NCBI GenBank assembly: GCA_015956445.1
Contig: WIUZ02000007.1
Span: 1,860,001-1,924,000, forward strand
Source of the DNA: Thelephora terrestris
Taxonomy: Eukaryota; Basidiomycota; Agaricomycetes; Thelephorales; Thelephoraceae
Direction of reading: 5' to 3'
DNA length: 64,000 bases
Shown here: positions 3,479 through 35,948 of the stretch, piece after piece
Layout of the letters: each line of letters opens with the position of its first letter
Numbering within the stretch: position 1 is the stretch's first letter
The notes under the pieces: generated by a model
The model's input: the letters and a program-made list of their open reading frames with translations, nothing else
Told to the model about the DNA's origin: nothing
Database searches by the model: none
Translations under genes and position numbers: made by a program

Positions 3479-3481
3479 TTT

Positions 3482-3499
3482 TGGAACCCACGCCGGGAC
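3482..3499 (+). other. Gypsy primer binding site (candidate)
   Basis: TGGAACCCACGCCGGGAC begins three bases after the 5' LTR. It starts with TGG, as expected for pairing with a tRNA 3' CCA end. The tRNA was not identified. Confidence 0.65.
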
Positions 3500-3730
3500 C
3501 GGTTCAGAACGTCACCTCCTTGTTAGAAGACATCAGTCATTCCCCGAGGACGTGCCACGAGCGCGCGTCATCAGCCTACTCGTCCTACCCCAGTTCTTAC
3601 TCGCGCTCGAGCTCACGAACTCGCGACTCTCTCCCGAGCCAGGGAAGATCTTCTCGTTGCCCAGATAGCTGCTGTTGAAACTCAGGATATCCTCACCGCC
3701 ATCGATAACATCATCTCTGCCCGACAAAAT

Positions 3731-6385
3731 TTGCCTGCCGCCACTTCTACTCCCCTCCCGCCTTCCGACTCTGAGGATTCACCTTTCAGCACCCCCCCTT
3801 CGTCTCCGACAGCAGCACACGACTATCTTCCCCCCTCTCCAGTTCTCGAGCCTATCTCGCATCCCACCTCTCCTCTATCGTCTGTAGCCCCGGATTCTCC
3901 TCTCATCTTGACACCAGCCCAGTTATCTCCCACCCTCCCACCCGTGTCACGACCAGAATCCCCCATCCCTCCCCTCGCGCCAATCGTCCCGCCACCAGTT
4001 CCAGCTATGACTACAGTAAACATGCCTATGCCGGGCAACCGCGAGGCCCCCAAATTTTCAGACGATGCAGACTTCTTCGACGAGTTCTTTATCGATGTCG
4101 CAGAGCTCGCTGCTCGCGCTGGCCTCGCCGATAAGGATGCTATTCGATGGGCTATACGCTACGCAGGCCCAGAGAGTGCCTCTTGGCGCTACCTCCCTTC
4201 CGTTGTCGATGAGGGTAACCCCACGCTCAAGCAATTCCAGGCAGAAGTTGCTAAGTGTTACCCACATCTCGGTAGCGACCGCCGGTACTCTAGAGGCGAT
4301 ATGCAGCGTCTCTTAGAGAGGACCCAGCGTCTCAACGACATGTCTCGCGACGATCTCGGACGATACTTCCGTCGCTTCGTTACCTACTCCACCTATCTCC
4401 TCCGAAGGAATCGTCTCTCCGAGCACGAGCGCAACGGGCTCTATCTCCAGGGCTTCCCTCTCGACGTTCGCCAGTCTATCAGGCGACGTCTCGCGATTAA
4501 GGTCCCCGACACCGTCCCGAGTGAGGGATACGAGTTCGACGACATTCACGAGGCTGCCTTGTTCGTCCTCGCAGACGAGGCTCAGCCAGCTACTACTACG
4601 ATCGTAAAGCAAGAGCAGGACACCGTCGGCCAGCTCCTCCAGGCTGTCTCCGACCTCACCCGTGTTTTCACCTCCAATGCTCATACTCAGCGTCCTCGTA
4701 CCCCTCCCGCGAATCCTCCCGCTCCTCGCTATCGCCCAGATACTCCTCGTCCCGCTCCGGGAGGAGCTTATCAGAGTACCCCCCGGTGGAACCCCCAGTC
4801 CGCACAACGCCCGGAGCCCTACCAGGCTCCACAGCGTTCAGATCACTACCAGCAGCAGTATCAGCAGAACTGCATGTTTTGTAGCGAGCCTGACCATTTC
4901 GTGCGCGACTGTCCACTAGCTCTCGAGTATATGCGCGACGGCAGAGTCATTCGCAACGACTTCGGGAAGATTGCGCTCCCAGACGGCCGATTCCCCCCTC
5001 GTCATATCCCCGGTAAGAACATGCGCGAGCGTGTTGACAACTGGTGGAACTCAGAAGGCATTCAACGAGAGGCTCCCGCCCCAGAAGTCGTTTCTACCCA
5101 CTACCTGGAAACTCTCGACGAATGTATCTTCGAGTTTGACGTCTCTCCTCACGAGTCTTCGTGCAACTTCGCGAACTGTCCCGATAGCACCGACAACACC
5201 GATGAGCAGCTCTCGATGATACAGGCTCAGATCGACTCACTCCGCGAGGCCCAGGTTCTTGCAGTCGAGAAGGGTTCCAAGAAGGTGCAGTTCGACGGTG
5301 TTGAGATCGCCAGGAGAGTCGGCCCTCCTAGGAGAGACGGTCGTCTCCCCACTCCTCCTCCCCCCAAGAGTCCCTCTGTGAACGTTCCCTCCTCTTCCTC
5401 CTCCCAGTTTCCCCCTCTCGCCCAGTCTCAGCCAGCTCCCGCTCCACTCCCGATCAGGTCTGCTCTTAAGCCATCTCAGCCCTCGACGTCCCAGCTCTCG
5501 ACTTCTGAGCCCACTCCTCCTACCCCTAACGTCTTCGGAAGACCTGGAGTTCGCGCTGGAGCTCTCCCTATCCCACGTTCACAAGGACCCATGCGTCCCG
5601 TCTCGATTCCCGCCAAGCCCACTGCCGAGGAACCTAAGTCCCGTTACCAAGCCGCCATCGAGACAGACGTTAACACCTCCGATATCGCCAATCGGGTGCT
5701 CGATGCGAAGGTAACCCTCAGCAGTCGCGAGCTTCTCGCTGTATCTTCCGACGTCCGTCGACATATGAAGGACCTCGTTACTTCAAAGAAGGTATCAGCC
5801 AACTTAGTGGAAATCGACGACGACGACCTCCCGAACGGTGCTACGACTAGCGGTTCTCTCCCGTCTTCCGTCTACTTCGATCTCGTGAAGTACGACCCGG
5901 CTTCGTCTGCCGCCGCGGCCTCCCTACCTCTTCGCGTCATTCGTCCCACCTTCGCGCCCGGCGTTGAGCCCGAATGCATCCTCGACGGTGGAGCACAGAT
6001 AGTAGTCATGCGAAAAGACATCTGGGAACGCATCAAAGCACCTATCGCAGCAAACAAGGCTATGTCCATGGAGTCTGCTAACTCCTCTAGGACCACGACT
6101 CTAGGACTCATCGAGAATCACCCGGTCAAGCTTGGACCTATCACGATTCACCTCCAGATCCAGGTCGTAGACGACGCTCCCTTTGAAGTCCTGCTAGGAA
6201 GACCCTTCTTTGACGTCGTGAACTGCTCGGAAGTCAGCCGTTCCGGCGGGAACCACGAGATCCACGTCAAAGACCCTAGCACCGGTACTCCCTACGTCTT
6301 CGCGACGGAGCCTCGTCCTAATAGAGCCTCTTGCTGCCCTCCCGAGAAACACGGAAACGCACAGTCCGCAAATTTTCAACACTAG
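3731..6385 (+). CDS. gag: Gypsy Gag–protease polyprotein
   Basis: This 884-codon frame has a Pro/Ser-rich start, a retrotransposon Gag-type helical domain (about residues 95–290), one CCHC zinc knuckle (CMFCSEPDHFVRDC, near residue 380) and a retropepsin-like aspartic protease region near the C-terminus (about residues 740–860). The next frame, pol, overlaps its end by 55 bases in the −1 frame. This is the usual arrangement for read-through by ribosomal frameshifting in this family. The true start codon is uncertain because the region between the primer site and this ATG is also largely open. Confidence 0.88.
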   Translation: MPAATSTPLPPSDSEDSPFSTPPSSPTAAHDYLPPSPVLEPISHPTSPLSSVAPDSPLILTPAQLSPTLPPVSRPESPIPPLAPIVPPPVPAMTTVNMPMPGNREAPKFSDDADFFDEFFIDVAELAARAGLADKDAIRWAIRYAGPESASWRYLPSVVDEGNPTLKQFQAEVAKCYPHLGSDRRYSRGDMQRLLERTQRLNDMSRDDLGRYFRRFVTYSTYLLRRNRLSEHERNGLYLQGFPLDVRQSIRRRLAIKVPDTVPSEGYEFDDIHEAALFVLADEAQPATTTIVKQEQDTVGQLLQAVSDLTRVFTSNAHTQRPRTPPANPPAPRYRPDTPRPAPGGAYQSTPRWNPQSAQRPEPYQAPQRSDHYQQQYQQNCMFCSEPDHFVRDCPLALEYMRDGRVIRNDFGKIALPDGRFPPRHIPGKNMRERVDNWWNSEGIQREAPAPEVVSTHYLETLDECIFEFDVSPHESSCNFANCPDSTDNTDEQLSMIQAQIDSLREAQVLAVEKGSKKVQFDGVEIARRVGPPRRDGRLPTPPPPKSPSVNVPSSSSSQFPPLAQSQPAPAPLPIRSALKPSQPSTSQLSTSEPTPPTPNVFGRPGVRAGALPIPRSQGPMRPVSIPAKPTAEEPKSRYQAAIETDVNTSDIANRVLDAKVTLSSRELLAVSSDVRRHMKDLVTSKKVSANLVEIDDDDLPNGATTSGSLPSSVYFDLVKYDPASSAAAASLPLRVIRPTFAPGVEPECILDGGAQIVVMRKDIWERIKAPIAANKAMSMESANSSRTTTLGLIENHPVKLGPITIHLQIQVVDDAPFEVLLGRPFFDVVNCSEVSRSGGNHEIHVKDPSTGTPYVFATEPRPNRASCCPPEKHGNAQSANFQH

Positions 6386-9300
6386 ACGATTCTGTACCGG
6401 CGAAGCATCCCGATACCCATCTTCCCCTTCGCTATCCTCCTCATCCCAGCCCCGCAGAATCGTCTTCCGTCCGTGTTTCCTCCCGTGGTCTTCCAGGCCA
6501 TATACCCTCTTTCTCCTCCTTTCCATCTCACCAGTTTCCCTCTCGTTCCTCGGTAGTTTTCTCTCCTTTTGACTCTTGTTCCTCTTCCAGTTCTTCCTTG
6601 TCTGTAGATTCTTCGCGATCGTCCCACTCTCCTCCAGTTCCTTCCCACTCTGTTTTCACTTTCTCTCGACTGTTTTCTCCTCCCGGTTCCGTTTCTCCCG
6701 CTTCGTTTTCTGTTTCCCCTGAGCATTCCCCTTTTACTTCCGCTTCCGTAGACATAGATTCCGTTTCTCTCCATCCCGTTTCTGTTGATCATTACGTTTA
6801 TCCTCCAGATACCCCCTCTCGCTCTCCTCCCGTACCATTCTCGCGCGAGTGTCTCCCCACGAGCACGCAGTCCCCCGAGAGCCCACTTGTATCCTTTGTC
6901 TCCCTTCTCTCCACTTCCCCCTCTCGACGTACTCTCTCCTCTGCTCTCGCTACGCTCCAGGAAACACTCCCGAGCCCGTCTCCCGGTCCCCTCAACCAGT
7001 TCTCGGCTCTAAGCCAATGGTATACCGACCGTCACGCCCAGAGTCTATCCCCTCCCGACGACCCCTACCTTGCCTCAGCCTTCGCCTATAAGAAGGTAGC
7101 CAATAAGACTCGACCCGTCGCGACCACCCTCCCCGAGAACTTCCGGATCACTCGTCGAGACCATCCCGATCCCCTAGCAGGCATGCCCCCGCTTCCAACT
7201 CGTCCTCCCGACTTCGTCCCTACTGGTCGCCTCACCCAAGAACGACGAGACCAGATGGACTTAGGAAGAGATCTCCTTCTCCCTGAAGAAGTCAAGCTTG
7301 CTGAGTGGATCGTCTGCACCCACAATACCGCCTTCGCCTGGACCGACGAAGAGAGAGGTAGCTTTGACCCACAGTATTTCGCGCCAATTCAGATCCCCCG
7401 TATCTCGCACACTCCCTGGGTTCATCGACAAGGCCCTATCCCTCGCGGTATTCTGAACGACGTCACGAAGATCATCGAAGACAAGTGGAGATCCGGTGTC
7501 TACGAGCCGTCCTCCTCCTCCTACAATAGTCGCTGGTTCTGCGTCTATAAGAAGGACGGCAAGTCTCTTCGTCTCGTTCACTCTCTGGAGCCCCTGAACG
7601 CTGTTACCATTCGCAACGCCGCTATGCCTCCCTACACTGACGTAGTGGCCGAGGACTTCGCTGCTAGGTCGATCTACACCACGCTAGATCTCTACGTCTC
7701 ATTCGACCAGCGGCAACTCCATCCCTCCTCTCGCGACATGACAACGTTCAATACTCCTTTAGGTCCCTTTCGTCTTACAGTCCTCCCGATGGGCTGGACG
7801 AATTCTCCTGCTGTTCTCCAAGGCGACATCACGCATATCCTCCGACCCGAGATCCCCCACTGCACTCAGCCCTTCGCTGACGACGTCCCGATCAAAGGTC
7901 CCCGCACACGATACGAGCTTCCCGACGGTACCTTCGAGACTATCCCCGACAACCCAGGCATTCGACACTTTGTCTGGGAGCATTTTGAGTCCGTCCACCG
8001 TATCATCCAGCGTGTCAAAGCCTACGGAGCCACGTTTAGCGGCAAGAAAGCTTTCATTGGAGTCCCTCGCGCTGACATTCTCGGACACATCTGCACCTAT
8101 GACGGCCGTATCGCGGATTCCTCCCGCATTCGCGCCATCGAAAACTGGCCCGTCCCGACGAATGTCTCCGAAGTACGAGCTTTCTTAGGCACTTGTGGCG
8201 TCCTTCGTATCTTCATCAAGGATTACACCCTCATTGCCCGCCCGCTTATTCAGCTTACTCGCAAGGACGAACCCTTCGCCATCGGCCCCGAGCACCTCCA
8301 AGCCATCGCTACGCTTAAGTCAGCTATCGCGAACTCTCCCGCTCTCAGACCCATCGACTACGACTCCGAGAACCCCGTCATTCTCGCCGTCGACTCTTGC
8401 ATGAATGGCGCCGGCTACATTATCTTCCAGATTGGGGACGATAAGAAGCGCTATCCTAGTCGATTTGGGTCTATCACCTTCAACGAGCGAGAGTCCCGCT
8501 ATTCTCAGGCTAAACTGGAGCTCTATGGCCTCTTCCGCGCTCTGAAGCAGACGCAGCTCTACACCATCGGAGTCAAACGCCTTATCGTCGAGATGGATGC
8601 CAAATTCATCAAGGGGATGCTCAATAACCCTACTCTCCATCCTAACGACGCTATCAACCGGTGGATTGCTGCTATTCTCCTCTTCGACTTCGAGCTCGTA
8701 CACGTCCCTGCCGAGAAGCATACCGGAGCGGACGGACTCTCCCGACGTCCTCGCGCTTCCGATGACCCCCTTCCCGACGAAGGTGACGACTTAGAAGACT
8801 GGATCGACAGTCAATCTGGTTTCTTTATCGAGGCTACTTCCCCACCTTCTCTCTTCGACTCCGCACCACCTCTCTCCCTCGTCTCCTCCCACATAGCCAC
8901 CGAAGATCCAGACCTCGATCCCGAGTCGTCCCTCTCCTCCTCCTTCCCTCCCGCTGAGAAAGCCGGCGAGATTCCCCGTTCCGAGAAGGCTCTGCGCCGC
9001 GAGGCCAAGCTCTCGAAGATCCGCCACTTTCTCACCACCCTCGAACGTCCGCCAGACCTCTCTGATCAGGAGTATCGACAGTTCATCCGACAGGCCTACG
9101 ATTACTTCATCTTGGACTCCCGCCTGTTCCGGAAACATCGAGACGGTTACTCCCAGCTGGTTCCCCCTCCCGACGCCCGCTACCCCCTCATCGAGTATGC
9201 TCACGACAATCTCGGTCACAAGGGTGTCTTCGCTACGACTAGGAACTTGCTGATTCGCTTCTGGTGGCCCTTCCTCAACGAAGACGTTCGATGGTTCGTC

Positions 9301-10389
9301 AAGACCTGCCGAGAGTGCCAGTTTCGTCAAACTGAGTACTTCTTCATTCCCCCTATGGTCCCCGACGTCCCTTCCCTCTTCCGCAAAGCCCACATCGACA
9401 CGTTCCTTATGCCCAAGGTCGGGAACTACCGTTATGTCATCCATGCTCGCTGCGCGATGACTTCATATCCCGAAGGACGCGCTACCACCTCCGACTCCCA
9501 CTCCGTTATCGCCGACTTTATCTTCCAGGACATCCTTTGTCGCTGGGGCGCTCTCGACGAGTTAGTCACTGACAACGGTACCGCTTACATCGCTGCCCTC
9601 GACCTTATCGCTGCTCGCTATGGCATTCGACACATCCGCATCTCTGGCTACAACTCCCGCGCGAATGGCATCATCGAGTCCAAGCATTTCGACGTTCGCG
9701 AAGCCGTGATGAAGACCTGCAAAGGTAACGAGTCTAAGTGGCGTCAAGTTCTCCCTCTCGTGTTCTGGGCCGAGCGTGTTACCGTCCGCAAGGCTACTGG
9801 TTACTCCCCCTACTATATGGTTCACGGTGTTCACCCCCTTCTCCCCTTCGACATTCTCGAGGCTACCTATCTTGCTCCCACTCAAGACTTCGGCGTTTCT
9901 ACCGAGGAACTCATCGCCATCCGGGCTCAACAGCTCGCGAAGCGTCCCGAAGATCTCGCGACGATGCGCCAACTCGTCACTCAGTCTAGGATCAAGAACC
10001 TTGAACGGTTCGAAAAAGAGCACGCCTCCCGCATCATTGACTTCGACTTCAAGCCTGGAGCTCTCGTCTTAGTCCGCAACAACCGTATCGAGGAAGCCCT
10101 CAACCGGAAGACCAAGCCTCGCTACACTGGTCCTATGGTTGTGGTCCGCAAGACTATCGGCACCTCCTATGTCATCGCCGAGCTCGACGGTTCCCAGGCT
10201 CAGCTTCGCGTCGCTGGTTTTCGACTTATCCCCTACTTTCCCCGCACTCGCGCCACGGTTCCTATTGTTCCCGACGTTCTCGACGACGAGTTTGACTCTA
10301 CCGAAGACGACCCCGAGGACACCCTGTACTTTGGCTCGTTGGACTCCGATTCCTCTACTTACATTCACTTGGACGCTCCCTCTTTATGA
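6331..10389 (+). CDS. pol: Gypsy Pol: reverse transcriptase, RNase H, integrase
   Basis: This 1352-codon frame runs in the −1 frame relative to gag and starts inside it. In order it shows a long Ser/Pro-rich linker; reverse transcriptase (about residues 390–570, with the conserved double-Asp motif near 516); RNase H (about 680–800); an HHCC integrase zinc domain (about 955–1000); an integrase core with the DDE-type residues (TDNG near 1079, Glu near 1115); and a GPY/F-like C-terminal module (about 1245–1300). It looks intact. The first ATG need not be used if pol is made as a Gag–Pol fusion. Confidence 0.93.
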   Translation: MLPSRETRKRTVRKFSTLDDSVPAKHPDTHLPLRYPPHPSPAESSSVRVSSRGLPGHIPSFSSFPSHQFPSRSSVVFSPFDSCSSSSSSLSVDSSRSSHSPPVPSHSVFTFSRLFSPPGSVSPASFSVSPEHSPFTSASVDIDSVSLHPVSVDHYVYPPDTPSRSPPVPFSRECLPTSTQSPESPLVSFVSLLSTSPSRRTLSSALATLQETLPSPSPGPLNQFSALSQWYTDRHAQSLSPPDDPYLASAFAYKKVANKTRPVATTLPENFRITRRDHPDPLAGMPPLPTRPPDFVPTGRLTQERRDQMDLGRDLLLPEEVKLAEWIVCTHNTAFAWTDEERGSFDPQYFAPIQIPRISHTPWVHRQGPIPRGILNDVTKIIEDKWRSGVYEPSSSSYNSRWFCVYKKDGKSLRLVHSLEPLNAVTIRNAAMPPYTDVVAEDFAARSIYTTLDLYVSFDQRQLHPSSRDMTTFNTPLGPFRLTVLPMGWTNSPAVLQGDITHILRPEIPHCTQPFADDVPIKGPRTRYELPDGTFETIPDNPGIRHFVWEHFESVHRIIQRVKAYGATFSGKKAFIGVPRADILGHICTYDGRIADSSRIRAIENWPVPTNVSEVRAFLGTCGVLRIFIKDYTLIARPLIQLTRKDEPFAIGPEHLQAIATLKSAIANSPALRPIDYDSENPVILAVDSCMNGAGYIIFQIGDDKKRYPSRFGSITFNERESRYSQAKLELYGLFRALKQTQLYTIGVKRLIVEMDAKFIKGMLNNPTLHPNDAINRWIAAILLFDFELVHVPAEKHTGADGLSRRPRASDDPLPDEGDDLEDWIDSQSGFFIEATSPPSLFDSAPPLSLVSSHIATEDPDLDPESSLSSSFPPAEKAGEIPRSEKALRREAKLSKIRHFLTTLERPPDLSDQEYRQFIRQAYDYFILDSRLFRKHRDGYSQLVPPPDARYPLIEYAHDNLGHKGVFATTRNLLIRFWWPFLNEDVRWFVKTCRECQFRQTEYFFIPPMVPDVPSLFRKAHIDTFLMPKVGNYRYVIHARCAMTSYPEGRATTSDSHSVIADFIFQDILCRWGALDELVTDNGTAYIAALDLIAARYGIRHIRISGYNSRANGIIESKHFDVREAVMKTCKGNESKWRQVLPLVFWAERVTVRKATGYSPYYMVHGVHPLLPFDILEATYLAPTQDFGVSTEELIAIRAQQLAKRPEDLATMRQLVTQSRIKNLERFEKEHASRIIDFDFKPGALVLVRNNRIEEALNRKTKPRYTGPMVVVRKTIGTSYVIAELDGSQAQLRVAGFRLIPYFPRTRATVPIVPDVLDDEFDSTEDDPEDTLYFGSLDSDSSTYIHLDAPSL

Positions 10390-10629
10390 ATCTCTTGTTA
10401 TTTAATTTCTCGAGTTTTCTTTTTTGGACCACCTTCACCTTATGTTTCCCCTTCCTATCCCTATATCTATCGTCTGACCCCATCCACTCGTTTGAAATTT
10501 TTTTTTTTCTCTATGTTTCCCTCTCTTCGTCTTATGCCTCCCGATTTCTTTCCTATGCTTTTTCCGTCTTATCCCGGACTCATTTCTCTTTACTTATTCT
10601 TGCAGATTGCGCTCGGACTGATCTTGTGA

Positions 10630-10662
10630 CCGGGGACGGTCATGATTTCAAGTCCCGAGGAG
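10630..10662 (+). repeat. 33-bp direct repeat, left copy (polypurine-tract-like)
   Basis: This stretch ends CAAGTCCCGAGGAG and aligns over 33 bases with 12945–12977, sharing roughly four in five positions. The right copy sits directly before the 3' LTR and holds the working polypurine tract. The left copy, about 240 bp after pol, is where that tract would be expected if the antisense cassette were absent. Confidence 0.75.
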
Positions 10663-11046
10663 CCCCATACCCTCGCGAACGCTCGCGCTCGCTGATAGTG
10701 AGGTAACTCTTCGTGAGACCCACTAGAGACACTACCTCGAGTAGTGGTCCTCACCCAATTTTTCCCTCGCTTTGCGACTGATCTTCGGATCTGGTCACAC
10801 CGCATACTACTAACCTTGCGTTGTGATTCGTCGCAATGTCCCCCACTCCTTTAGCTCTCCTATTTTCATTCACCAACCGCCAACGACTCCCGACTCCCTC
10901 CCGATTTACTTCCCTCCCTCCCGGCTCGCTTTCCCCTCACGACGTTACAAAACCAAGAAAACCGACATCTATTCACGACACAAAAACGAAGACACAGTAT
11001 TGTTGATAGTCCAAGATATGCGCAGATCGAATTTACCTCCCCATCC

Positions 11047-11760
11047 TCACTCGCTCACTACCCCCTCGTCCCCTCCACCCTCCTCTTCACCACCTTCTCC
11101 TCCCGCACTATCCCCAGCCCCCGATCCCTCTCCCGCATCCGACAACTCGAAGTCGCTATCTCCCGGCGGAACGTCCGTCACGTACTCGAGGTCCGAGTCC
11201 TCGTAGACGCCCTCACCACCGTCAGCGATGATGGCCTCGTTCAACGCCGCGAGGATCTCCTTCCCGACCAGGCGACGATCCTCGACCCTCGCCACGATCT
11301 CGTTGGCGTCCGCGCGTTCTCGACGCAGGATGGAGCGAAGTTCGGTTCGTCTGAGTTGCAGATCGAACCTCGACTGTCCAGACCCTCCCGCCGCATCACC
11401 CAACGGAGCCAGGTCAGCGAAGAAGACCGTGGCAACGTCTGGAGGTCTCACACCCCCCGAGACTTGAACCGGAGCCTGAAAAGAAGCCCCAGCAGCTCCC
11501 GACCTCGATCTCGTCGACATCGAGGGCGCGACATCCCTCAGCCTCATCCTGCCCACCTCCACCGTTCCGAGTTCCGTCGCCATCGCGCTCTTCGAGCGAT
11601 GTTTCTCGGCGTCCTTCCTACGCAGTGCCTTCCCGGCTTCAGAAGGCTCGATGTTCGGCCACTTCCCGATCCCAAAGCTCTTCAGCCCGAAGGAGCAGGC
11701 CTTCCTCCCGACGCCACAGGGCGCGCACTTCACCTTCTGGTCTTGGCCAGGATACCACAA
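11047..11760 (-). CDS. Antisense ORF with Cys motif and acidic tail
   Basis: This 237-codon frame has an N-terminal Cys cluster (CAPCGVGRKAC, with another Cys region nearby) that resembles a small zinc-binding or DNA-binding motif. A basic, Arg-rich middle follows that may form a coiled coil, then a strongly acidic Gly/Glu/Asp tail. It is probably the last coding segment of the antisense gene. No firm family was recognised; a transcription-factor-like role is only suggested by the Cys cluster and acidic end. Confidence 0.5.
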   Translation of the reverse strand: MWYPGQDQKVKCAPCGVGRKACSFGLKSFGIGKWPNIEPSEAGKALRRKDAEKHRSKSAMATELGTVEVGRMRLRDVAPSMSTRSRSGAAGASFQAPVQVSGGVRPPDVATVFFADLAPLGDAAGGSGQSRFDLQLRRTELRSILRRERADANEIVARVEDRRLVGKEILAALNEAIIADGGEGVYEDSDLEYVTDVPPGDSDFELSDAGEGSGAGDSAGGEGGEEEGGGDEGVVSE

Positions 11761-11821
11761 AGGAGCGCACCTCCTCTGGCTCTTCTTCTTGCGAGAACAG
11801 AGACCGCAAGTCTACAGAACG

Positions 11822-12364
11822 TCAGCACCCTCGCTCCGGACTCTCGACTGACGGACTCACCGCCCCTCTGGCAAGAGGAATACGCTCGACGTCCAACGGA
11901 TCACCCTCGACGACCGTCTCTCCACTCAGATCCAGCAACGCCGGCTCCTCCTTCTCCGACTCGTCTGACTCCACCCGCTGGTTCCGGCGCGACTTCCTCG
12001 ACTTTTTCGACGTCGACGGCCCCTCCTCCTTGCTAGGCGAGCTCGAGAGCACCCGCTTCGTCCCAACGGATGGCTCCACAGCCTGAGCTCTCGTCTTCGG
12101 TGTTGGCTTCGCCCTTGGCGGCACCACAACCTCGAACCTCTCTCTAACCCTCCCCTTTCCCTTATCGACTCGCGCTGGAGCTGGTGCGATCTCCTCGCCC
12201 ACCATCTCGACGTCTTCTGCAGGTTCCGTAGCCATTGGAGCCGGTTCAGTAGAAATCCTCGCGCTTGGCGCTGGCGTTGGCGCCCTATGACTCGTCGTTC
12301 CCGTCGTCGTTCCCGCCGTCGTCCCAGCCGCTGTCCCAGTCGAGTTCCCGAAGTCCGGAACCAT
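11822..12364 (-). CDS. Antisense ORF, Thr/Ala repeats and basic stretch
   Basis: This 180-codon frame starts with a Gly/Thr/Ala repeat, then has a Lys/Arg-rich segment (KKSRKSRRNQR) that could be a nuclear localisation signal. It is probably the middle segment of the same antisense gene. The low-complexity composition gives no homology. Confidence 0.4.
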   Translation of the reverse strand: MVPDFGNSTGTAAGTTAGTTTGTTSHRAPTPAPSARISTEPAPMATEPAEDVEMVGEEIAPAPARVDKGKGRVRERFEVVVPPRAKPTPKTRAQAVEPSVGTKRVLSSSPSKEEGPSTSKKSRKSRRNQRVESDESEKEEPALLDLSGETVVEGDPLDVERIPLARGAVSPSVESPERGC

Positions 12365-12503
12365 CTCTGCTTCGATATGCCCGACCTTGTGGGCGGCCTC
12401 CGCGAAGTCTGTAACGAGCCTCAGTGGCTCAATATGGAAGGCCCTACAAACGTCCCGATGCCTCGACTACCCTCGCGCAGTTAGCTTCCGCCTCTCCTAG
12501 CCC

Positions 12504-12797
12504 CTAAGTAACGTCACTCACCAACCACGCCGACAAGTGATCCGCCCACGGCCCTCGTAGCTCCTTCTCTTCCTCGAGGCGCCCCTCCAGAGTCTTGAGC
12601 CGCCACACCGCCAGTACCGACTGCCAGACGAGGTTCACGCAGTCGGGAGACCCCGCGATGAGCTGCCTGATCTCCGGCTTCGACCACTCGTCTTTCTCCG
12701 GAGGAAAGAGACAGTCCTCCCCTAGTTGATCGAGCTCCGCGAACGGCGCGATCCCGTTGGGTCCCTTCGACGGAGTCCAGTCGCCAGCATAGTCCAT
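12504..12797 (-). CDS. Antisense ORF, likely N-terminal segment
   Basis: An ATG at 12797 opens a well-composed frame (MDYAGDWTPSKGPNG...) of about 97 codons with a Leu/Glu-rich C-terminal helix. A GT donor-like site lies at its end, and an AG acceptor lies before the next open segment. This is likely the start of the antisense gene. An ATG further upstream in the same frame extends it but adds a less convincing N-terminus. Confidence 0.4.
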   Translation of the reverse strand: MDYAGDWTPSKGPNGIAPFAELDQLGEDCLFPPEKDEWSKPEIRQLIAGSPDCVNLVWQSVLAVWRLKTLEGRLEEEKELRGPWADHLSAWLVSDVT

Positions 12798-12944
12798 TGA
12801 AGAGTAGAGAGGTTGTCGAGAGAGTCTGCGAAGAAGAGAGGTGATGATGTGGCAGCGAGAAGTTTTTCCTTTTGTCTCGCGCACTTACCCGATTCGAACG
12901 CCTCGTGTCAGCCTCGTGTTCGCCTCGCGCCTCCCTCGTGGCAA

Positions 12945-12977
12945 CCAGGGATGGTTGATATCTCAAGTCCCGAGGAG
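12945..12977 (+). repeat. 33-bp direct repeat, right copy with polypurine tract
   Basis: This is the partner of 10630–10662. Its end plus the following A gives CGAGGAGA directly before the TG of the 3' LTR, the expected place of the plus-strand primer tract. Confidence 0.75.
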
Positions 12978-12978
12978 A

Positions 12979-14273
12979 TGACCTGACTCCGTTTTCCTGG
13001 CCCTCCGACTCAGATCCATCACCCATCCTCCCTCCAGCGATTCGGGTCCCTTCCCCACCTGCCTGCCCTGTGTCGCGACGTATCGCGAGCCTCCCTCCTC
13101 GACCTGACGCTCCATCGACTCTCGCCAGTCTCCCGCCAGTCTCGCGACCTCCCGCCCGTCTGGACTTCACCAAAACTCTCTAAGTCCACATTCCGAGTCC
13201 GGCTTCCCCGATCCCGCGTGCCCTCCGATCACTTCCGCCTCTCGACAATGACTCGACCCCTTGTTCGTCGTTGTTCGGATCCCCCGCATCGGTCCGTCGT
13301 CCCGACTCTGGAACACGTGCCTCCCGCTCCTTTGTTGCACGTCGACGCCGCCCCGATCCTCTCGCCGCGTTGCCCGACTCCCGCCTGTTCCACTTCAGCC
13401 ATCTTTTGACGTCTTGGTTCGATCATCCATTCTGTAGCTTCGTAGTTTCCCACGATGCCTTCATTCCTCCCTCACCCCTTCCCGCCGCCTTGTTCGTTCC
13501 TCCCGCGTTCTTGTTCTCTCTATCCGATCCGCTCTTCGCTTTGTATGACCTCCCTACGCCCTTCACGACCTTCACGACTCCCGTTCTCTCGCGACGTTCG
13601 CTTTGTTCACTTCTCTTTCTCCCTCTTTTCATGTTCTACTTTCGACCTCTCTCTCTACCCACTATATAAGTGTCAGTAGATAGGCCTGGTTCGAATAACG
13701 AAGTGCAGTTCCCCCTTTCCCTCTAAAGTTCAACTCAGCCTTGCGCTGTCTAAAGCCCTCAACACTCTTCGTTCCTCGCGACCAAGTTCTCTTTGAGCGC
13801 AGTGCTCGAAGAACCCTCTAGCTTTTCTCTTTCCTCGTCTCGACTTCTCTCGACGTGAAGCGCAGTGCTTCTCGACCTTCTCTACTCGTCTCGCGAGCGC
13901 AGTGCTCTACTCCAGTCTTGAGCGCAGTGCTCAGCTCTTAGCTCTTCGTGGCGAACGCAGTGTTCACCACCTCTACTAGTTTCTTCTCGTCTCAGGTATT
14001 CGCTCGTTCTCTCGTCTCGCGCTGATAGCTTCCTTCTTAGCCACCTATCCCGCCGCGACCCTCTTCGTCGCGACGCTTGTCTATTGAGACTCTATTCTAT
14101 CGCCACCACCTCCTATTCCCTCCCTACTTCTCCCTACTCCTCCCTACTCCTCCCTACTCCTCTCTACCTCTACCTGCTTTACCCTACCGACGTCTGCACA
14201 ACCGGTCACCCACACCCTTCAGCTCCCTCTTCTTGCTACGTGTTCCCACGACTTAGCGAGACTGGGTAGTTCA
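12979..14273 (+). repeat. Gypsy 3' LTR
   Basis: This is nearly identical to the 5' LTR (TG...CA ends, same TATA box, same five hairpins). It has three instead of four copies of a 10-bp CTACTCCTCC-type unit and only a handful of substitutions. Its right edge abuts the truncated Copia 3' LTR. Confidence 0.95.
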
Positions 14274-14351
14274 GCGGTCGTGGGAAGTAACTACTAAAAG
14301 CGTAACCGTATAAGGGAAGGTTCGAAGCACGGAAAGTCTACTGTTTCAACA
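14274..14351 (-). repeat. Copia 3' LTR remnant
   Basis: This is the first 78 bases of the LTR in the element's own direction, starting TGTTGAAAC. It matches the outer end of the right LTR. The remainder is absent and is not found on the far side of the Gypsy element either. Confidence 0.9.
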
Positions 14352-14360
14352 CTCCCTCTG
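14352..14360 (-). other. Copia polypurine tract
   Basis: On the minus strand this reads CAGAGGGAG and lies directly before the LTR start, the expected plus-strand primer tract. Confidence 0.7.
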
Positions 14361-14400: not shown

Positions 14401-17400
14401 TTAAGAGTCCCTTCGTTTGAGAACAAGATCTAAGTTAGTTGAATACGCATCCCTCGAACTAACAAAGGAATCTACGGGAAGTGACTTGGTAAGGAAATCA
14501 GCCAAGTTATCGCAAGAGGGAACATAAGGAATGGAAATCTCGTTGCGATCGACGCGATCGCGCGTTGCGTGGAATTTTACGCCGAAATGCTTTGAGCCCT
14601 TGTGTGTGACTTCACCACGGGTAGCCAAGGCAATGGCGGACTGCGAATCGCAGTTGATTTTGAGGGGACCACGGAGGGGGCGACCGATAGCGTCGGCCAT
14701 GCTCCTGATCCAGGAGGCTTGACGACCGGCAGACCAAAGAGAAATATATTCGGCCTCCATAGTCGATTCGGCAGTGAGCTCCTGTTTTCTACTTGACCAA
14801 GAAATCGGGCCTTTCGATAGGAAGAAGATGCTGCCTGAGACAGATCGCCGTTTATCTTCCGGAGCGGGGTCGTTGCCAAAATCCGCATCGCAAAAACCTA
14901 CTGGGATTGAACTGAATTCGTTCGCAGGCTGCCTATAGTAGACGAGGCATTTCTCCTTTTCATGAGAGAGATAGCCTAGAACGCGGGCGACGGCCTGCAT
15001 GTGTTTTGCGGATGGGTTGGCGGAGAACTGGGAGAGTCTCCCAACCACGTAGCCTAAGTCCGGGCGAGTGCCGAGCATGATATACATCAGAGACCCGATA
15101 GCACTCTGATACTCCCGTACGATGGCGGGGTCATTATCCTCAACGGGATCGGGGTTCGGTTCCAAGTAACCGGCGGTAGTCATCGGGGTCTTGAAAGCTT
15201 TCAAGGTCACGTTAACGCGAGCCAAGACAGACTCGATAAAGGCGACCTGATCCAACGCAATAAAGGCGTGTGAGATGCCTCGTGTAATACCGGGTTTACG
15301 GGACCGACTGATCCGCATGCCGAGGAAGAAGTGGGCGTCAACTGGTGGCGTAATGTCGAAGTATTTGGGAATCCATTTTTCGAACTCGTTGGTAAGTATC
15401 TTGTCGCCGATAGGAAACAAGTCGTCCACGTAGACAGGGAGTACTAGCGTATAACGCGTTCCTCGCACGACTTTGTGGGCCACAAACGTGTGGGGCTCCG
15501 ACTTCACCTGAGTGAGACCAAACTTGGCCATCGTTTCCTTCAGCTTGAGGTACCATTGACGACCAGCCTGCTTTAGCCCATAAAGCGCCTTCTTGAGAAG
15601 AAGACAATGCCCGGCAGGAATATCGTAACCTTCCGGGGCTTCCATGAAAATTTCCTCGTCCAAGTCTCCATAGAGGTAAGCGGTTTTGACGTCGATCTGA
15701 CGCACTTCCCAGTCCTCCTGTACGGCGTACGCAAGAAGGAGCCGTAAGGTTTCCAGCCTGGTGACCGGAGCGAACGTCTCCTGGTAATCCTGACCGTAGA
15801 CCTGGGTAAAACCGCGAGCGACCAAGCGGGCCTTATAGCGAGTGACTTCGCCGTTAGCACCATACTTTGCTCGGTAAACCCACTTGCAACTAACAACGTT
15901 AGTGTTCTTGGGACGAGGGACCACTTCCCATGTTCCTCTGCCTTCGAGTGAGGCGATCTCTTCCGCTTCGGCAGCCTTCCACTGATCTGATTGTTTGGAC
16001 TTCATCGCCTCGGTATGACTCCTTGGCTCCATCACAGAAGACGCCTGGGTGTAAAGTTCGACCATGCTGAGATAAGCAATATCGGCCGCAGTCAAGTCTC
16101 CCTCTGAAGCGACGTGCTCTAATTCCGTCGGGATTGGAGGAGACGCGTTGCGAGTTGTGCGAACGCGCCCAGATCGCCTTGGCCCTTCATTGGAAGTGAT
16201 TACTTCCTCAGTTGGGACTGGAACTTCCAGTGCGACCTCCGGTTGCGAGGGATCGGGAGAAGACTGATCCGGTGGTGTCAGGAATCTGACCGCGTCGGTA
16301 GCGGAGTTGTCCTCGTTGTCATCGTCATCGTCCTCGGATGAGGAACCTGACGCTTCACTGTCCCGTGGATCGAGATCTTCGGGATCGAAGTCGTCCGAAC
16401 TGGACTTGGACTGAGAAGGAGGAGGGGGAGTAGGTTGAGCGGTCGCCGACGAGGCTTCCGCGGGAGGAGAGGGTTGACGTGGGGGAGTCCCGTTGTCGGG
16501 CGGCGTACGTGCCAGAGGTGCCGGTGATTCGGCGGGTGGAGTCGATTGATCTCTACCTTGACGATCGTCATCAACCGAAGATTCGTAGTCGGAATCCTCT
16601 TCTTCCCCATCAGAACTTTGAGGGTCGAAGAAACTCCAAGGGACGGTGGCGGTGGAAGGAGGTAATTTTGTCTTAGACGACGATGCAACGGGTTTGGTGG
16701 CAGGAGGAGAACGAGAGGGTTTGGAGGGAGCTGGAGCTGGGACAGGAGGAGTGGGAGCAGGAGGCTGGATCGCAGGCCGATTCGGAAGTTCCGATTCGTC
16801 GAACTTGACGTTAGCCGAGACAACGATTCTCCGGGATGCCGGATTCCATAAACGGAAGGCCTTAGATCCTGCTTCGTAACCGAGGAATACCATAGGCAGA
16901 GCCTTTGGATCCCACTTCTTCGCTGCTTCGTTGTAAGCCCAGGCGCGACAACCGAACGTGCGGAAATGAGAAACATTCGGAGTCCTTCCGAACATAAGTT
17001 CGTAAGGCGTCCGCCAGTCTAGACCTCTTCGAGGGACGCGGTTGAGGATATGTGCCGCAGAACCCATCGCTTCGGCCCAAAAACCTTTGGACATACCAGA
17101 ATGTTCCCGCATAGCGCGGGCAGACCCGAGAAGAGTCTGGTTCATCCGCTCGGCAACGCCGTTTTGTTGCGGTGTGTAGGGCGCCGAGGTTTCCCGAATA
17201 ATCCCGTGCTCCAAGAGATACTCCGAAAATTCCTCAGACAGGAATTCTCCACCACGATCAGAGTGAAAGAACTTGATCTTTCTTCCGGTTAAGTTCTCAG
17301 CCATCGCTTTGAACTCTTTGAACTTCTCAAAAGTTTGATCCTTGGACTTGAGGAAGTAGACCCACGTAAAAGAGGTCTTGTCATCGGTGAAGACGCAGCA

Positions 17401-19038
17401 GTAATTGGCACCGCCAATTGACTGCACTTCCATCGGTCCCATAAGATCCGAATGGATCCGTTCGATCGGGTAAGCAGATCGTGTTTCCTGAGAGGCGGCC
17501 GATTTGAACATACAGCGCTTGGCCTTCCCGACAATACAGCCGGTACATGACACCTTCGGGGCCTCGGTTTCGTCCAATACGATACCGTTGACGGGAGGGT
17601 TAGAAACCCTTGCCTTCTGAATCGCCTTCCAATTCGCGTGGCCCAAGCGCTGATGCCAAGTGGTGATAGGTAGGGCGGCGAGAGAATTGAGAGAGCGAAT
17701 ACGATGTGGGTAGTCAGCCCACATGTACACGAGGTAGAGGGATGAATGGCGACGTCCATCGAAAGAAACGCTTCCGTTCGAGATAGAAACTTTTCCCGAG
17801 TGGATGGAGATGGTAAAACCTTTTGCGTCGAATTTACTGACGCTGAGGAAGCGACGTTTGATGCCAGAAACGTGAAGGACGTCGGTGAGGATGATTGTCG
17901 CAAATCTGCGGGGTGCGATCTCGACGTGTCGCGTGACTTTGCCTTTGCCAAGAATCCTGAGTCGAGTGGTGCCATCGCCAAGAGTAACTGATCGTTCCTC
18001 CGAGAACAGACAGTAATCTTGAAAATCCGTGCCGTAAGGGGACATATGGTCGGTAGCACCGGAGTCGAGCAGCCAATTTTCAGTTCCAGACCCAAAATAG
18101 CAGGAAACGAAGATCTCGGATTGCTCGGCGGAGGAGGACGCAGTAGTTACATTGGCATCTACTACGTTGAGCGATCCGGACCCGGAACTGGAGGAGGAGG
18201 CCTTGGAAGGACAATCCTGCCTAAAATGCCCCGGCTGCCCGCAAGTGTAACACTTGTAGCCATCGGGTGGGGACTTTTTCTCTTTCTGCTTCTTCGACTT
18301 CTCCTTCTTTGGGCCCTGTTTCTTCTTCGGCTGCTTGACCGTGATTACGTTAGCTGCCGAGTCGGCCGCCTCGCCCTTCTTCCGGTTCTCGTACTCGAGA
18401 ATTCGAGCGCGAACGGTGTCGATCGAGAGGTCTTCGGCAGAAGGGGTGGAGGTGAGGAAATAGTCCTTGATGTGGGCGTAGGAGTCGGGGAGAGCGAGAA
18501 CAATGAGAGCGGCGAATTGCCAACTTTCAAACGTGAACTTGTGGAGGTGACATTTGGACCGTAGCTCCGCCATGTCGTTGAGCTGCTGCTCAACGTTACC
18601 GTCGTCGATGAACTTCGTCTTGACCAGGCGACCCCAGTCGAGCATAGCCGAGATACCGTCCTTCTTTTGGTACTTGACCTTAAGAAACTCCCATCTCTCG
18701 TGGGGAGTCGGCTCGCGATCGAAAATCTCGACGACGGCGGGAACGGTCTCGGTGGCCTCGGTTTTGACGTTGGTAACTTTGACTTTCGGGAGATCCTTCA
18801 ACTCCTGCTGAATTGGAGTGATGACGGTGGATCCAATGAGTCCTTTGGCCTTGTTGTAGCGACTGCGAAACTTGGCCTTCTCAGCGACGGAATCGTCGTA
18901 AGGTACGTCCTCTCCAGTGATCTGGTCCCAGCAGTCACCTAACAACGCTAGGTTCTCTACTGCAGTGGACCACTCGGCGTAATTTGCCTGGCCGGCGAGG
19001 ACAGGGACGCTTGAAATTTGCTTAGCGAGATCGGACAT
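14401..19038 (-). CDS. Copia Gag–protease–integrase–RT–RNase H polyprotein
   Basis: A single 1545-codon frame in Copia order. It has a UBN2-type Gag, a CCHC knuckle (CYTCGQPGHFRQDC, near residue 262), an aspartic protease (WLLDSGATDHMS, near 323), a GAG-pre-integrase zinc region (near 460), an integrase core (HSDRGGEF, near 592), a long Pro/Ser-rich linker, reverse transcriptase with YVDD (near 1200), and RNase H to the C-terminus. Integrase before RT separates Copia from Gypsy. The frame looks intact. Confidence 0.95.
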   Translation of the reverse strand: MSDLAKQISSVPVLAGQANYAEWSTAVENLALLGDCWDQITGEDVPYDDSVAEKAKFRSRYNKAKGLIGSTVITPIQQELKDLPKVKVTNVKTEATETVPAVVEIFDREPTPHERWEFLKVKYQKKDGISAMLDWGRLVKTKFIDDGNVEQQLNDMAELRSKCHLHKFTFESWQFAALIVLALPDSYAHIKDYFLTSTPSAEDLSIDTVRARILEYENRKKGEAADSAANVITVKQPKKKQGPKKEKSKKQKEKKSPPDGYKCYTCGQPGHFRQDCPSKASSSSSGSGSLNVVDANVTTASSSAEQSEIFVSCYFGSGTENWLLDSGATDHMSPYGTDFQDYCLFSEERSVTLGDGTTRLRILGKGKVTRHVEIAPRRFATIILTDVLHVSGIKRRFLSVSKFDAKGFTISIHSGKVSISNGSVSFDGRRHSSLYLVYMWADYPHRIRSLNSLAALPITTWHQRLGHANWKAIQKARVSNPPVNGIVLDETEAPKVSCTGCIVGKAKRCMFKSAASQETRSAYPIERIHSDLMGPMEVQSIGGANYCCVFTDDKTSFTWVYFLKSKDQTFEKFKEFKAMAENLTGRKIKFFHSDRGGEFLSEEFSEYLLEHGIIRETSAPYTPQQNGVAERMNQTLLGSARAMREHSGMSKGFWAEAMGSAAHILNRVPRRGLDWRTPYELMFGRTPNVSHFRTFGCRAWAYNEAAKKWDPKALPMVFLGYEAGSKAFRLWNPASRRIVVSANVKFDESELPNRPAIQPPAPTPPVPAPAPSKPSRSPPATKPVASSSKTKLPPSTATVPWSFFDPQSSDGEEEDSDYESSVDDDRQGRDQSTPPAESPAPLARTPPDNGTPPRQPSPPAEASSATAQPTPPPPSQSKSSSDDFDPEDLDPRDSEASGSSSEDDDDDNEDNSATDAVRFLTPPDQSSPDPSQPEVALEVPVPTEEVITSNEGPRRSGRVRTTRNASPPIPTELEHVASEGDLTAADIAYLSMVELYTQASSVMEPRSHTEAMKSKQSDQWKAAEAEEIASLEGRGTWEVVPRPKNTNVVSCKWVYRAKYGANGEVTRYKARLVARGFTQVYGQDYQETFAPVTRLETLRLLLAYAVQEDWEVRQIDVKTAYLYGDLDEEIFMEAPEGYDIPAGHCLLLKKALYGLKQAGRQWYLKLKETMAKFGLTQVKSEPHTFVAHKVVRGTRYTLVLPVYVDDLFPIGDKILTNEFEKWIPKYFDITPPVDAHFFLGMRISRSRKPGITRGISHAFIALDQVAFIESVLARVNVTLKAFKTPMTTAGYLEPNPDPVEDNDPAIVREYQSAIGSLMYIMLGTRPDLGYVVGRLSQFSANPSAKHMQAVARVLGYLSHEKEKCLVYYRQPANEFSSIPVGFCDADFGNDPAPEDKRRSVSGSIFFLSKGPISWSSRKQELTAESTMEAEYISLWSAGRQASWIRSMADAIGRPLRGPLKINCDSQSAIALATRGEVTHKGSKHFGVKFHATRDRVDRNEISIPYVPSCDNLADFLTKSLPVDSFVSSRDAYSTNLDLVLKRRDS

Positions 19039-19162: not shown

Positions 19163-20831
19163 TGTCGGAGTGCGGCGAAAACCTAGACGGATCGCTGTAA
19201 GCGAGAGTCCTCAATCAAGAACAAACACTGGGGGCAAGGGTTGGTTTACTGAGTCAGTAAACTGTGAGTAAATTACAAGTAAATGGAAAAAGAACCTAGT
19301 GAAATACTTGTCTGGCAAGCACAAAGAAAATTCACAATTTACTGAGCCAATTTACCTGCAATTTACTGGGTTCAGTATGCGCTCAGTATGTTTGCAGTTT
19401 ACTGGGTCATGTGACCACAGTTTCCCCATTAGGTAAACCTCGGAAAAATTCACAATTTACTGAACAAATTTACCAGCAGTTTACTGAGCCACTTGCCCAA
19501 TCAGTATGTTTTTAATTTGCTGAGTGGTTTGATCACAGTTTACTGGACTCAGTAAACTGGAAAAAAACCAAACTGGTTTACTGACGACGTCCCTGATTGG
19601 TCAATTCTAAAAATAACCGAAAATTTACCTGGACGTGTCATTGTCAGTAAACTGCAAGTTTTCTTTCAGTAAATTGGAAATACACGTCTGGTAAACTGGG
19701 AAAACACGTGACAATTTGATCGTGGTTTACTGGACTCAGTAAATCAAAAAAAAACCTAACCGGTTTACTGACAATGTACCTGATTGGCTAATTTGAAAAA
19801 TACTCGAAATTTTACCAGGACGTGTCTTTATCAGTAAACTGCAAGTTTTCTTTCAGTAAATCACAAGTACACGTAAAGTAAACCAGAAAACACGTAAACT
19901 TTGAATTTACTTACAGTTTACACGTGTTTTCTGGTTTACTTTACGTGTACTTGTGATTTACTGAAAGAAAACTTGCAGTTTACTGATAAAGACACGTCCT
20001 GGTAAAATTTCGAGTATTTTTCAAATTAGCCAATCAGGTACATTGTCAGTAAACCGGTTAGGTTTTTTTTTGATTTACTGAGTCCAGTAAACCACGATCA
20101 AATTGTCACGTGTTTTCCCAGTTTACCAGACGTGTATTTCCAATTTACTGAAAGAAAACTTGCAGTTTACTGACAATGACACGTCCAGGTAAATTTTCGG
20201 TTATTTTTAGAATTGACCAATCAGGGACGTCGTCAGTAAACCAGTTTGGTTTTTTTCCAGTTTACTGAGTCCAGTAAACTGTGATCAAACCACTCAGCAA
20301 ATTAAAAACATACTGATTGGGCAAGTGGCTCAGTAAACTGCTGGTAAATTTGTTCAGTAAATTGTGAATTTTTCCGAGGTTTACCTAATGGGGAAACTGT
20401 GGTCACATGACCCAGTAAACTGCAAACATACTGAGCGCATACTGAACCCAGTAAATTGCAGGTAAATTGGCTCAGTAAATTGTGAATTTTCTTTGTGCTT
20501 GCCAGACAAGTATTTCACTAGGTTCTTTTTCCATTTACTTGTAATTTACTCACAGTTTACTGACTCAGTAAACCAACCCTTGCCCCCAGTGAAAGTGATT
20601 TATATTTGTACCTAGACGGATCGCTGTAAGCGAGAGCTATCGACTAGGTAAGTGAAGGTTCTAAGAAGAGAGAATAAAAATGTACGCACTCCTCAATCAA
20701 GAACAAAGTGATTGAGGAGTCGGAACGAAAATTGTCTACTCTCGTACGCGGTAGCGGTCGTGGGAAGTAACTACTAAAAGCGTAACCGTATAAGGGAAGG
20801 TTCGAAGCACGGAAAGTCTACTGTTTCAACA
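19163..20831 (-). repeat. Copia 5' LTR, split by a palindromic transposon
   Basis: On the plus strand it runs TGTCGG...TTCAACA, so on its own strand it is TG...CA. The LTR parts are 19163–19225 and 20592–20831, with the palindrome between them. It carries an internal duplication: the phrases TAGACGGATCGCTGTAAGCG and TCAATCAAGAACAAAGTGATT each occur twice (the second counted across the insertion site). Confidence 0.9.
19226..20591. mobile_element. Palindromic CACTG-ended element (CACTA-like, non-autonomous)
   Basis: This 1366-bp element is an almost perfect inverted repeat from end to end, with arms of about 670 bp and a loop of roughly 20 nt near 19900–19915. The ends are CACTGGGGGCAAGGG and its complement. 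AAA flanks it on both sides (19223–19225, 20592–20594). Removing the element and one AAA gives TCAATCAAGAACAAAGTGATT, which is also present intact at about 20691–20714 in the same LTR. CACT(A/G) ends plus a 3-bp duplication fit the CACTA/EnSpm superfamily. The arms are crowded with CAGTAAAC/GTTTACTG motifs. There is no coding capacity, so it must be moved in trans. Confidence 0.85.
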
Positions 20832-22654
20832 CCTGTAAGCTATCAGTATCCTCAGAGAAGAGAGAAGAAACAGGGGAAAACTGAGGGAGTGTGCATGCAA
20901 ATCACAGCACCAGCATTACCACTATCTGTGCTGGAAATTTCCTGTGATTTAGGCACTGTCCGAGATACCTCTTGCTGACGATACACAGCAAGAAAACATT
21001 AGTCATTGCACATGCAATTTGTCTGCTAAAGTTCACGCTGACCGGCAGATGATGGGCAGTATCATGGCCTTCACAAAGGGAGCAGAAGATTGGGGATACT
21101 TACTGTTGTTGGAAGAAATGGCTAAAACCATCCTGAAATTGCAAAACATGGTTGCATGACCGTATGTGGAAAACTCTTGGGCATAGTACAAATGGATGTG
21201 GCGAGATCACAATGTTACTTGGCTGTAAGATGGGTGCATTAGCTTGGTAGTCTCTGGTTGATGTGTGGGATTCACAAAACTTACTAACAATCCGGAAATT
21301 GAGGAAGAATGGGATGAACTTGGTGGTGTGATTACCTCAAGCGCGAGACCATCATCGTCTAGCGGCCCGTGTGTCGGTGGCCGGAATCAGGGTCAGTCAA
21401 TGATTGACAAGGATGAGGCCTCTTGATGTTCAATCCATAAATCACGAGCGGCAGAGGAGTCCATGAAGGATCACCTTATTTATGCCTAGAAGACCAGCCT
21501 TCCAACCCCCATCCTGCGCAACAATTTCCACAAGACCATCACTGCGCTCCACCCGAGAGCACCGCATACGAAGTATCTTCCCTAATTCCTCTGGGTAGCC
21601 ATACGAGCGGACGAAGGTAGGAGAGTTGAGCGAGAGTGTGCCTGTAGAATGGATCAAATTAAGCTAGTCGCCGGCTCAAATCTCCGGGGCGGCGGAATTA
21701 GATGTAGAAGGAGAGGGGGAAGGCGCAGGCACGACTTTATGCTCGGACTTCCTATTGTTTAGTCTGTAAACCAGCGTCACCGTACTTTCATTATCATGGA
21801 GATGTACGGAACCAACTCTGGACGGACCCTCAGAGGCAGGAAATTCTTTCACGATGCCTAGTACCCAGATGACTCCATGAGTTGTGATCAACAATGCGGG
21901 CGACGGTGTACTTTGCTAACTGGGAGGAAAGCTTTTAGCTTGGCTAAACGGGCTGTTTGTACAAAGCACGCAGAGTCCAAGAGGCCGTATGTGAAGGTTA
22001 CGCGCAACGTTCGACCATTTAGGTTTGCGCTTTCGATGTTGGGGGAAAAGGACGGGCTTGCCGAAGCTTAGATAATGGTTTAGACGCACAACCGAGGGAT
22101 CCACAAAGCGCGAACATTTTCTCCTGTCGTCATGTACCATCCGGCGACCCTTCGACCCCTTTGTCAAGGTAAATGTGCGTCCGTGGCATGTCGAGACGGC
22201 CGGACGAACTCCATTTCCGAAGCTGAGCTCGTGGATCTGGATATTCGGGAGCTCGGTCTGTGGTTTGATGGGGTGGGTTTGACCCTTCGCGTGGGGCTTC
22301 TGGCGGTTTGTTCTGGGCGAATATTTGGGACTTGTCGAGGACGCCGTGGCCTTTGTTCTGCGTGTGTGCAGGAGGGTAGAGCGAACCCACGGAGTCGGTC
22401 CTTGCCGACGAATGGGTCCAAACTCGAAGCCGTGGCTGCAGGCTGCCTGTCTGCAAAACATGGGTTCTTGGCCTCGGCCATTACCAGTCCTAGGCCATGG
22501 GGTGCGCTCTTTTAAGGAGCACAATCGTCGCTCACGCGTCATAACAACTCTACGTTTCTTTCGCAATTCCCTCACCCCCCAACGCGCAACCCAGATCAAG
22601 GACCCTGCATCACTAGCTCCCCCCTTCCACAACACCATATCCCCGACCCATACT
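20832..22654. other. Intergenic stretch, no confident gene
   Basis: This lies between the Copia element and the first F-box gene. Two adjacent minus-strand frames (21442–21657 and 21676–21894) have fair composition and could be exons of a small unknown or decayed gene, but no family or clean splice pair was found. The last 500 bp include the F-box gene's promoter region. Confidence 0.4.
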
Positions 22655-34620: not shown

Positions 34621-34714
34621 CTTGTGCTTTTTGGAAGGGTGTGCTGATCGCGGCTATGGCAGAAGTTGCTCGATCGCGTACCACGTCTCCTCCGCCTCTG
34701 AACGCCCTCTCTCA
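34621..34714. promoter_or_regulatory. 94-bp divergent interval between RVB2 and uL2m starts
   Basis: Only 94 bp separate the two start codons, so the two genes share a bidirectional promoter or their 5' leaders overlap. No TATA box was seen. Confidence 0.6.
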
Positions 34715-35937: not shown

Positions 35938-35948
35938 TATCCCCTACC

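Follow-up and report, generated by a model that had tools for sequence, protein, structure and literature searches.

A perfect 1.37-kb foldback transposon with CACTA/EnSpm-type ends in Thelephora terrestris and its possible snap-back origin

The origins of foldback (FB) elements and of palindromic miniature inverted-repeat transposable elements (MITEs) have mostly been argued from old, diverged copies. Palindromic MITEs, which lack coding capacity, take hairpin form and are mobilised in trans, are usually under about 600 bp, and their arms are diverged. Here we describe an element that resembles them in non-coding character, hairpin form and, probably, trans mobilisation, but not in length or arm divergence: a palindrome of 1,366 bp at positions 19226-20591 of a 64,000-nucleotide stretch of the basidiomycete Thelephora terrestris (assembly GCA_015956445.1, contig WIUZ02000007.1, positions 1,860,001 to 1,924,000, forward strand), which is referred to as the window throughout this paper. 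It is probably a non-autonomous cut-and-paste transposon that moved recently, has foldback form and CACTA/EnSpm-type ends, and consists of two 670-bp left ends placed head to head.

Several described systems share part of these features. The foldback form, tandem repeats within the terminal inverted repeats (TIRs), a middle domain and apparent non-autonomy are found in Tetris of Drosophila virilis, as described in passages of PMC4079207, from which the present element differs in its perfect arms and in a loop that resembles its own end. According to the same passages, most foldback elements seem to belong to Mutator, whereas the ends found here are of CACTA type with a 3-bp target site duplication (TSD). 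Galileo of Drosophila willistoni also includes copies with two long TIRs and shows TIR extension, and its defective copies were ascribed to gap repair and template switching; however, it belongs to the P superfamily with a 7-bp TSD, and the TIRs of the copy in which they are second longest (1575 and 1608 bp) are 97.5% identical, against 100% here (PMC4168063, in part). With regard to the ends, rust-fungus elements with CAC..GTG termini and 3-bp TSDs were placed in EnSpm (PMC12730594, in part). The likeness to these fungal EnSpm (CACTA) elements lies in the 5'-CAC..GTG-3' ends and the 3-bp TSDs, but those elements carry a transposase, and three P. striiformis families a TET/JBP gene as well, while the present element has no long reading frame and is palindromic throughout (PMC12730594, in part). 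No fungal CACTA foldback was found among the open-access papers listed, as judged by titles and the starts of abstracts, which is no proof of absence; the consulted part of PMC9674265 holds nothing on fungal CACTA ends, and CACTGGGGGC, sought in literature text, led to no relevant paper among the matches listed, again by titles and abstract starts.

The first-pass annotation, made from the sequence alone, had claimed a palindrome of about 1.37 kb at these coordinates, with arms that match almost base for base around a short central loop. The coordinates proved exact, and alignment of the arms gave a stronger result than the one claimed: the two 670-nt arms are complementary at 670 of 670 positions, the loop comprises 26 nt, and in a comparison of the element with its own reverse complement every one of the 8 mismatched position pairs fell within this loop (Table 1). 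The arms account for 1,340 of the 1,366 bp and are thus very long TIRs, as is characteristic of foldback elements. Direct repeats inside the TIRs, another foldback feature, are present with periods of 187 and 118 (two copies each), and the period-118 units share a 42-nt core that was also recovered by a separate repeat scan. Across the whole window, only the two ends match the first 25 bases of the element within 6 mismatches. The termini are CACTG...CAGTG, and pairing halts there, the three nearest outer flank bases being unpaired. Since the palindrome ends at CACTG, this copy looks as if it had been transposed as a unit; a local inverted duplication was rejected because the flanks beyond the ends are not palindromic. 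A hidden gene was likewise rejected, the longest stop-to-stop frame in the element being 70 codons; the absence of coding capacity, together with TIRs and an AAA TSD, is that of a MITE. The computed RNA fold is a single hairpin of -1243.4 kcal/mol, a value for which there is no shuffle baseline at such length.

Comparison of the flanks revealed agreement at k = 1, 2 and 3 and disagreement at k = 4 to 10, which defines a TSD of 3 bp, AAA. When the flanks are joined with a single AAA they read TCCTCAATCAAGAACAAAGTGATT, and the same 24 bp were found uninterrupted (24/24) a short distance to the right, in a search that required matches to span the flank joint. This paralogue acts as an empty site and gives independent support for the boundaries of the element. 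The CACTG...CAGTG ends and the 3-bp AAA duplication proposed at first reading were both borne out, and so was the view that the element is a transposon, which is now supported by the TIRs, the TSD, the paralogous empty site and the sharp border of the palindrome.

Table 1. Coordinates of the palindromic element, its parts and its surroundings in the window
Feature	Position	Strand	Details
Whole palindromic (foldback) non-autonomous transposon	19226..20591		1366 bp
Left arm	19226..19895	+	670 nt, starts CACTGGGGGCAAGGGTTGGTTTACTG
Central loop	19896..19921	+	26 nt; 19898-19921 vs right subterminal 20537-20560: 21/24
Right arm	19922..20591	-	Exact reverse complement of left arm; terminal CAGTG
GTAAACT, putative annealing site of fold-back primer	19894..19900	+	7-bp inverted repeat
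AGTTTAC, putative fold-back primer	19915..19921	+	Reverse complement of 19894-19900; spacer 14 nt; directly at junction
Two tandem units, period 187, left arm	19528..19890	+	19528-19703 vs 19715-19890, 82% alike; mirrored in right arm
Two tandem units, period 118, left arm	19327..19541	+	19327-19423 vs 19445-19541, 79% alike; mirrored in right arm
TSD AAA, left copy	19223..19225		Flank comparison
TSD AAA, right copy	20592..20594		Flank comparison
Paralogous empty target site TCCTCAATCAAGAACAAAGTGATT	20690..20713	+	Identical to joined flanks with one AAA
Copia-type gag-pol ORF of host retrotransposon	14401..19038	-	1545 aa, uninterrupted
Putative right LTR end of Copia element	20753..20832	+	80 bp, exact repeat at 14273-14352

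The new point concerns the loop, which is related to the right end of the same element in a way that suggests a particular mode of origin. Of the 26 bases in the loop, 24 (19898-19921) align without gaps to the reverse complement of 19257-19280, and hence to the right-end sequence 20537-20560 (positions 32-55 counted from the terminus), with 21 of the 24 positions identical; the next best place for this 24-mer in the left arm reaches 17/24. In two controls no match exceeded 19: one set 582 24-mers from the interior against the terminal 65 bp on both strands, and the other took the 1,294 best 24-mer matches inside the arm, with overlapping pairs excluded, as well as same-strand pairs offset by about 187 or 118. 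The likeness stops at the junction of loop and arm, where the next 8 bases agree at 0/8, while the right end, in the register of the loop, continues for 31 further bases up to CAGTG.

Based on these features, it is possible, and we propose tentatively, that a single step turned a CACTA-type element into a perfect foldback: a broken right TIR folded back through a 7-bp inverted repeat and was extended by copying the remaining 670 bp, which gave a fully mobile product with two left ends. The progenitor would have been a conventional element some 727 bp long (670 + 26 + ~31), laid out as the left arm, the loop sequence and then TGACTCAG...CAGTG, with TIRs of at least about 55 bp that differed at 3 of the 24 visible positions. 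Its right end would have been broken and lost up to 19921, after which the 3' end AGTTTAC may have folded onto GTAAACT of the same strand across a 14-nt spacer and primed copying of the left arm as far as the terminus, while two additional bases (AC) entered at the joint. The product, carrying two identical left ends, would then have been moved as a unit by the transposase into the leader of a Copia element. Such an origin would account for the perfect arms, the likeness between loop and right end, the stop of this likeness at the junction and the non-palindromic flanks.

Several points weigh against this account. The fold-back stem offers mild support, as 7-bp stems with a 3-30-nt spacer end at 13 of the 636 positions of left arm and loop, 19921 included, and at 138 of 62,325 positions in the rest of the window; 2% of the positions in the element thus do equally well, about nine times the window rate, which is high because the element is rich in GTAAAC/GTTTAC. 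A simple snap-back predicts GTGTTTTC right after 19921, but ACGTGTTTTC is observed, so that slippage, untemplated addition or a short insertion is needed for the two unpredicted bases (AC) at the joint. The ACAGTTTAC of the loop is common to the start of the first 187-bp unit (TTTGATCACAGTTTAC), as is TTTGA, and a partial third 187-bp unit could explain part of the loop likeness, given an insertion of about 6 nt. The TSD is known from one insertion, and AAA is a low-complexity triplet. Neither a second copy nor a coding relative was found in the window or in scans of IMG/VR and GTDB contigs, where exact patterns gave 0 matches (terminal 19-mer in IMG/VR viral contigs, terminal 22-mer in GTDB contigs, internal 29-mer in both); these zeros say little, the two being virus and prokaryote collections that are not expected to contain a fungal family.

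Instead of a single snap-back, the TIRs may have grown in steps as copies underwent ectopic exchange or gap repair with one another, a process that has been discussed for Galileo and foldback elements. The tandem units of the arms, which recall the internal repeats of Tetris, would suit such a history. However, the arms show no gradation, identity being 100% from terminus to loop, and the similarity of loop and right end breaks off at the junction, so that stepwise elongation is considered unlikely, though not negligible.

The assignment to the CACTA superfamily made in the first-pass annotation agrees with the ends, the 3-bp TSD and the subterminal repeats; membership in CACTA/EnSpm is consistent with these features, from which it is drawn, but is not proven by them. 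The termini follow the CAC..GTG standard given in part of PMC12730594, and the 3-bp TSD, known here from one insertion, is backed by the paralogous empty site. Subterminal arrays of direct and inverted repeats, together with a 3-bp duplication, were described for CACTA elements (PMC8978399, in part), and the present element contains 34 exact motif sites (17 TTTACTG and 17 CAGTAAA), with 5 in the remaining 62.6 kb of the window. There are 17 such sites in the left 683 bases, whereas 1000 dinucleotide shuffles gave 0.29 on average and never more than 2. By contrast with these elements, hAT elements produce TSDs of 8 bp, or 5-7 in subgroups (PMC12730594, in part), and hAT was rejected because no 8-bp duplication is present, the flanks differing at k = 4 to 10.

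Among the 104 stop-to-stop open reading frames (ORFs) in the window that are at least 130 aa long, 17 distinct ones were searched with Pfam, and no DNA-transposon transposase was detected; the 17 had domains of long terminal repeat (LTR) retrotransposons, housekeeping domains or no match. CACTA/EnSpm (CMC) elements owe their mobility to a DDE transposase bearing C(2)C and H(3-4)H motifs. An enzyme of this type encoded elsewhere may act in trans on the palindrome, in which case it would recognise CACTG and the densely packed subterminal repeats (TTTACTG/CAGTAAA) and create a 3-bp duplication on inserting the element. With no transposase identified, the element might be driven by another superfamily with 3-bp duplications (e.g., PIF/Harbinger) or by an undescribed one, which we regard as improbable. 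Harbinger elements prefer TWA as the target, and the AAA duplication does not fit this preference. TSDs of 3 bp occur in canonical Harbinger elements and, as 2 or 3 bp, in the EnSpm-related PlavakaB, the ends of which are CATCA..TGATG, while PlavakaA has TGT..ACA ends with 2-bp TSDs (passages of PMC12730594). It is the combination of CAC..GTG ends, repeated subterminal motifs and a 3-bp TSD that matches the descriptions of EnSpm/CACTA against such a rival (PMC12730594 and PMC8978399, both in part).

It had also been stated that the element must be very young or be kept identical by gene conversion; the first of these is favoured here, and the second is retained as a disfavoured possibility. 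The 0 differences in 670 arm positions place arm divergence below 0.45% (95% bound). Divergence between tandem units of the same arm amounts to about 18-21%, against none between the arms, and the palindrome is therefore younger than its internal repeats, unless conversion acts only between arms; the apparent birth scar in the loop points in the same direction. If the palindrome belonged to an old family in which the arms within each copy are held identical by gene conversion or hairpin-templated correction, perfect arms would equally be expected, and long inverted repeats with close spacing are able to anneal within a strand (PMC4057610, in part). Nevertheless, the neighbouring 187-bp and 118-bp units have not been homogenised, being still 82% and 79% alike, the insertion sits in a Copia element with an uninterrupted ORF of 1545 aa, and the bound on arm divergence is easily reached by youth alone, all of which makes this explanation quite improbable. 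An assembly or library artefact (a foldback chimera) is very improbable, even though the palindrome is known here from assembled sequence alone and palindromes are troublesome for cloning and most sequencing approaches (PMC4057610, in part), because the palindrome stops exactly at transposon ends that are flanked by a TSD and backed by an empty-site paralogue, the loop has a sequence of its own, and a chimera would be expected to mirror the flanking DNA as well.

The element has a GC content of 37%, compared with 44.5-58.7% across 32 two-kb bins of the window, 2 of which include the element. Dinucleotide indices were computed to consider repeat-induced mutation as the source of the AT richness of the arm. 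They were 1.26 for TpA/ApT, 0.93 for (CpA+TpG)/(ApC+GpT) and 0.60 for CpG observed/expected in the arm, values biased by the dense motif, and 0.68, 1.02 and 1.03, respectively, in the rest of the window. An Rfam search at the gathering threshold and a tRNA search each gave 0 matches.

The insertion of the palindrome lies in the leader of a retrotransposon of Copia-like type, just upstream of its coding region, between the gag start and the 80-bp repeat at 20753-20832. The ORF of this retrotransposon contains the Pfam domains RVT_2, rve, Pol_BBD, Retrotran_gag_2 and zf-CCHC, and relatives of its protein sought in viral contigs gave 27 pattern stretches, 0 of which were confirmed. We infer that the 80-bp repeat represents the end of the Copia LTR, the left copy of which was cut by a Gypsy element. 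The palindrome probably disables this Copia element, the ORF of which is uninterrupted. A 27-bp exact direct repeat containing TCGCT-GTA-AGCGA lies on either side of the insertion (19181-19207 and 20610-20636), each copy 18 nt from the palindrome end, and is taken as part of the Copia leader, not as a TSD. An 11-bp perfect inverted repeat, CTCCTCAATCA..TGATTGAGGAG, was observed at 20689-20719 in the leader/LTR region, and a second, partial copy of this repeat also occurs, with the insertion point of the palindrome in its loop. The Copia end repeat is identical at 80 of 80 positions, a weak divergence bound of 3.7%.

Elsewhere in the window, a Gypsy-like LTR retrotransposon occupies 2174-14273; its 1.3-kb LTRs align over 1,305 columns, of which 10 contain gaps and 4 are substitutions. 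Its outer flanks (..GGACCGG / GCGGTCG..) have no 5-bp duplication; its right end adjoins the Copia LTR copy and its left flank is unlike that LTR, a pattern that would be left if two elements had recombined or a deletion had occurred. The identities of the arms, of the Copia end repeat and of the Gypsy LTRs fit recent activity in the region. Other features are a tandem array of period 35 at 697-976 (six overlapping 105-nt copies, 65-83% alike to the reference copy), an uL2-like ORF at 34622-35965, for which the best three PDB matches are mitochondrial uL2 chains, and ORFs with Pfam F-box, sirohaem-synthase, lysine methyltransferase and PX domains. These domains, along with the LTR retrotransposons, point to a eukaryote, and DUF4100 and the gene content would suit a fungus, in particular a basidiomycete.

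Palindromes have been linked to genome instability (PMC4057610, in part), and double-stranded RNA might arise from the 670-bp perfect hairpin. In a copy whose arms have not diverged and whose loop seems to preserve the inner portion of a lost right end, a mechanism consisting of a broken TIR, snap-back, copying and re-transposition becomes testable. If true, it would provide a general route from ordinary MITEs to foldback elements composed only of TIRs, with the birth scar still readable in the loop.
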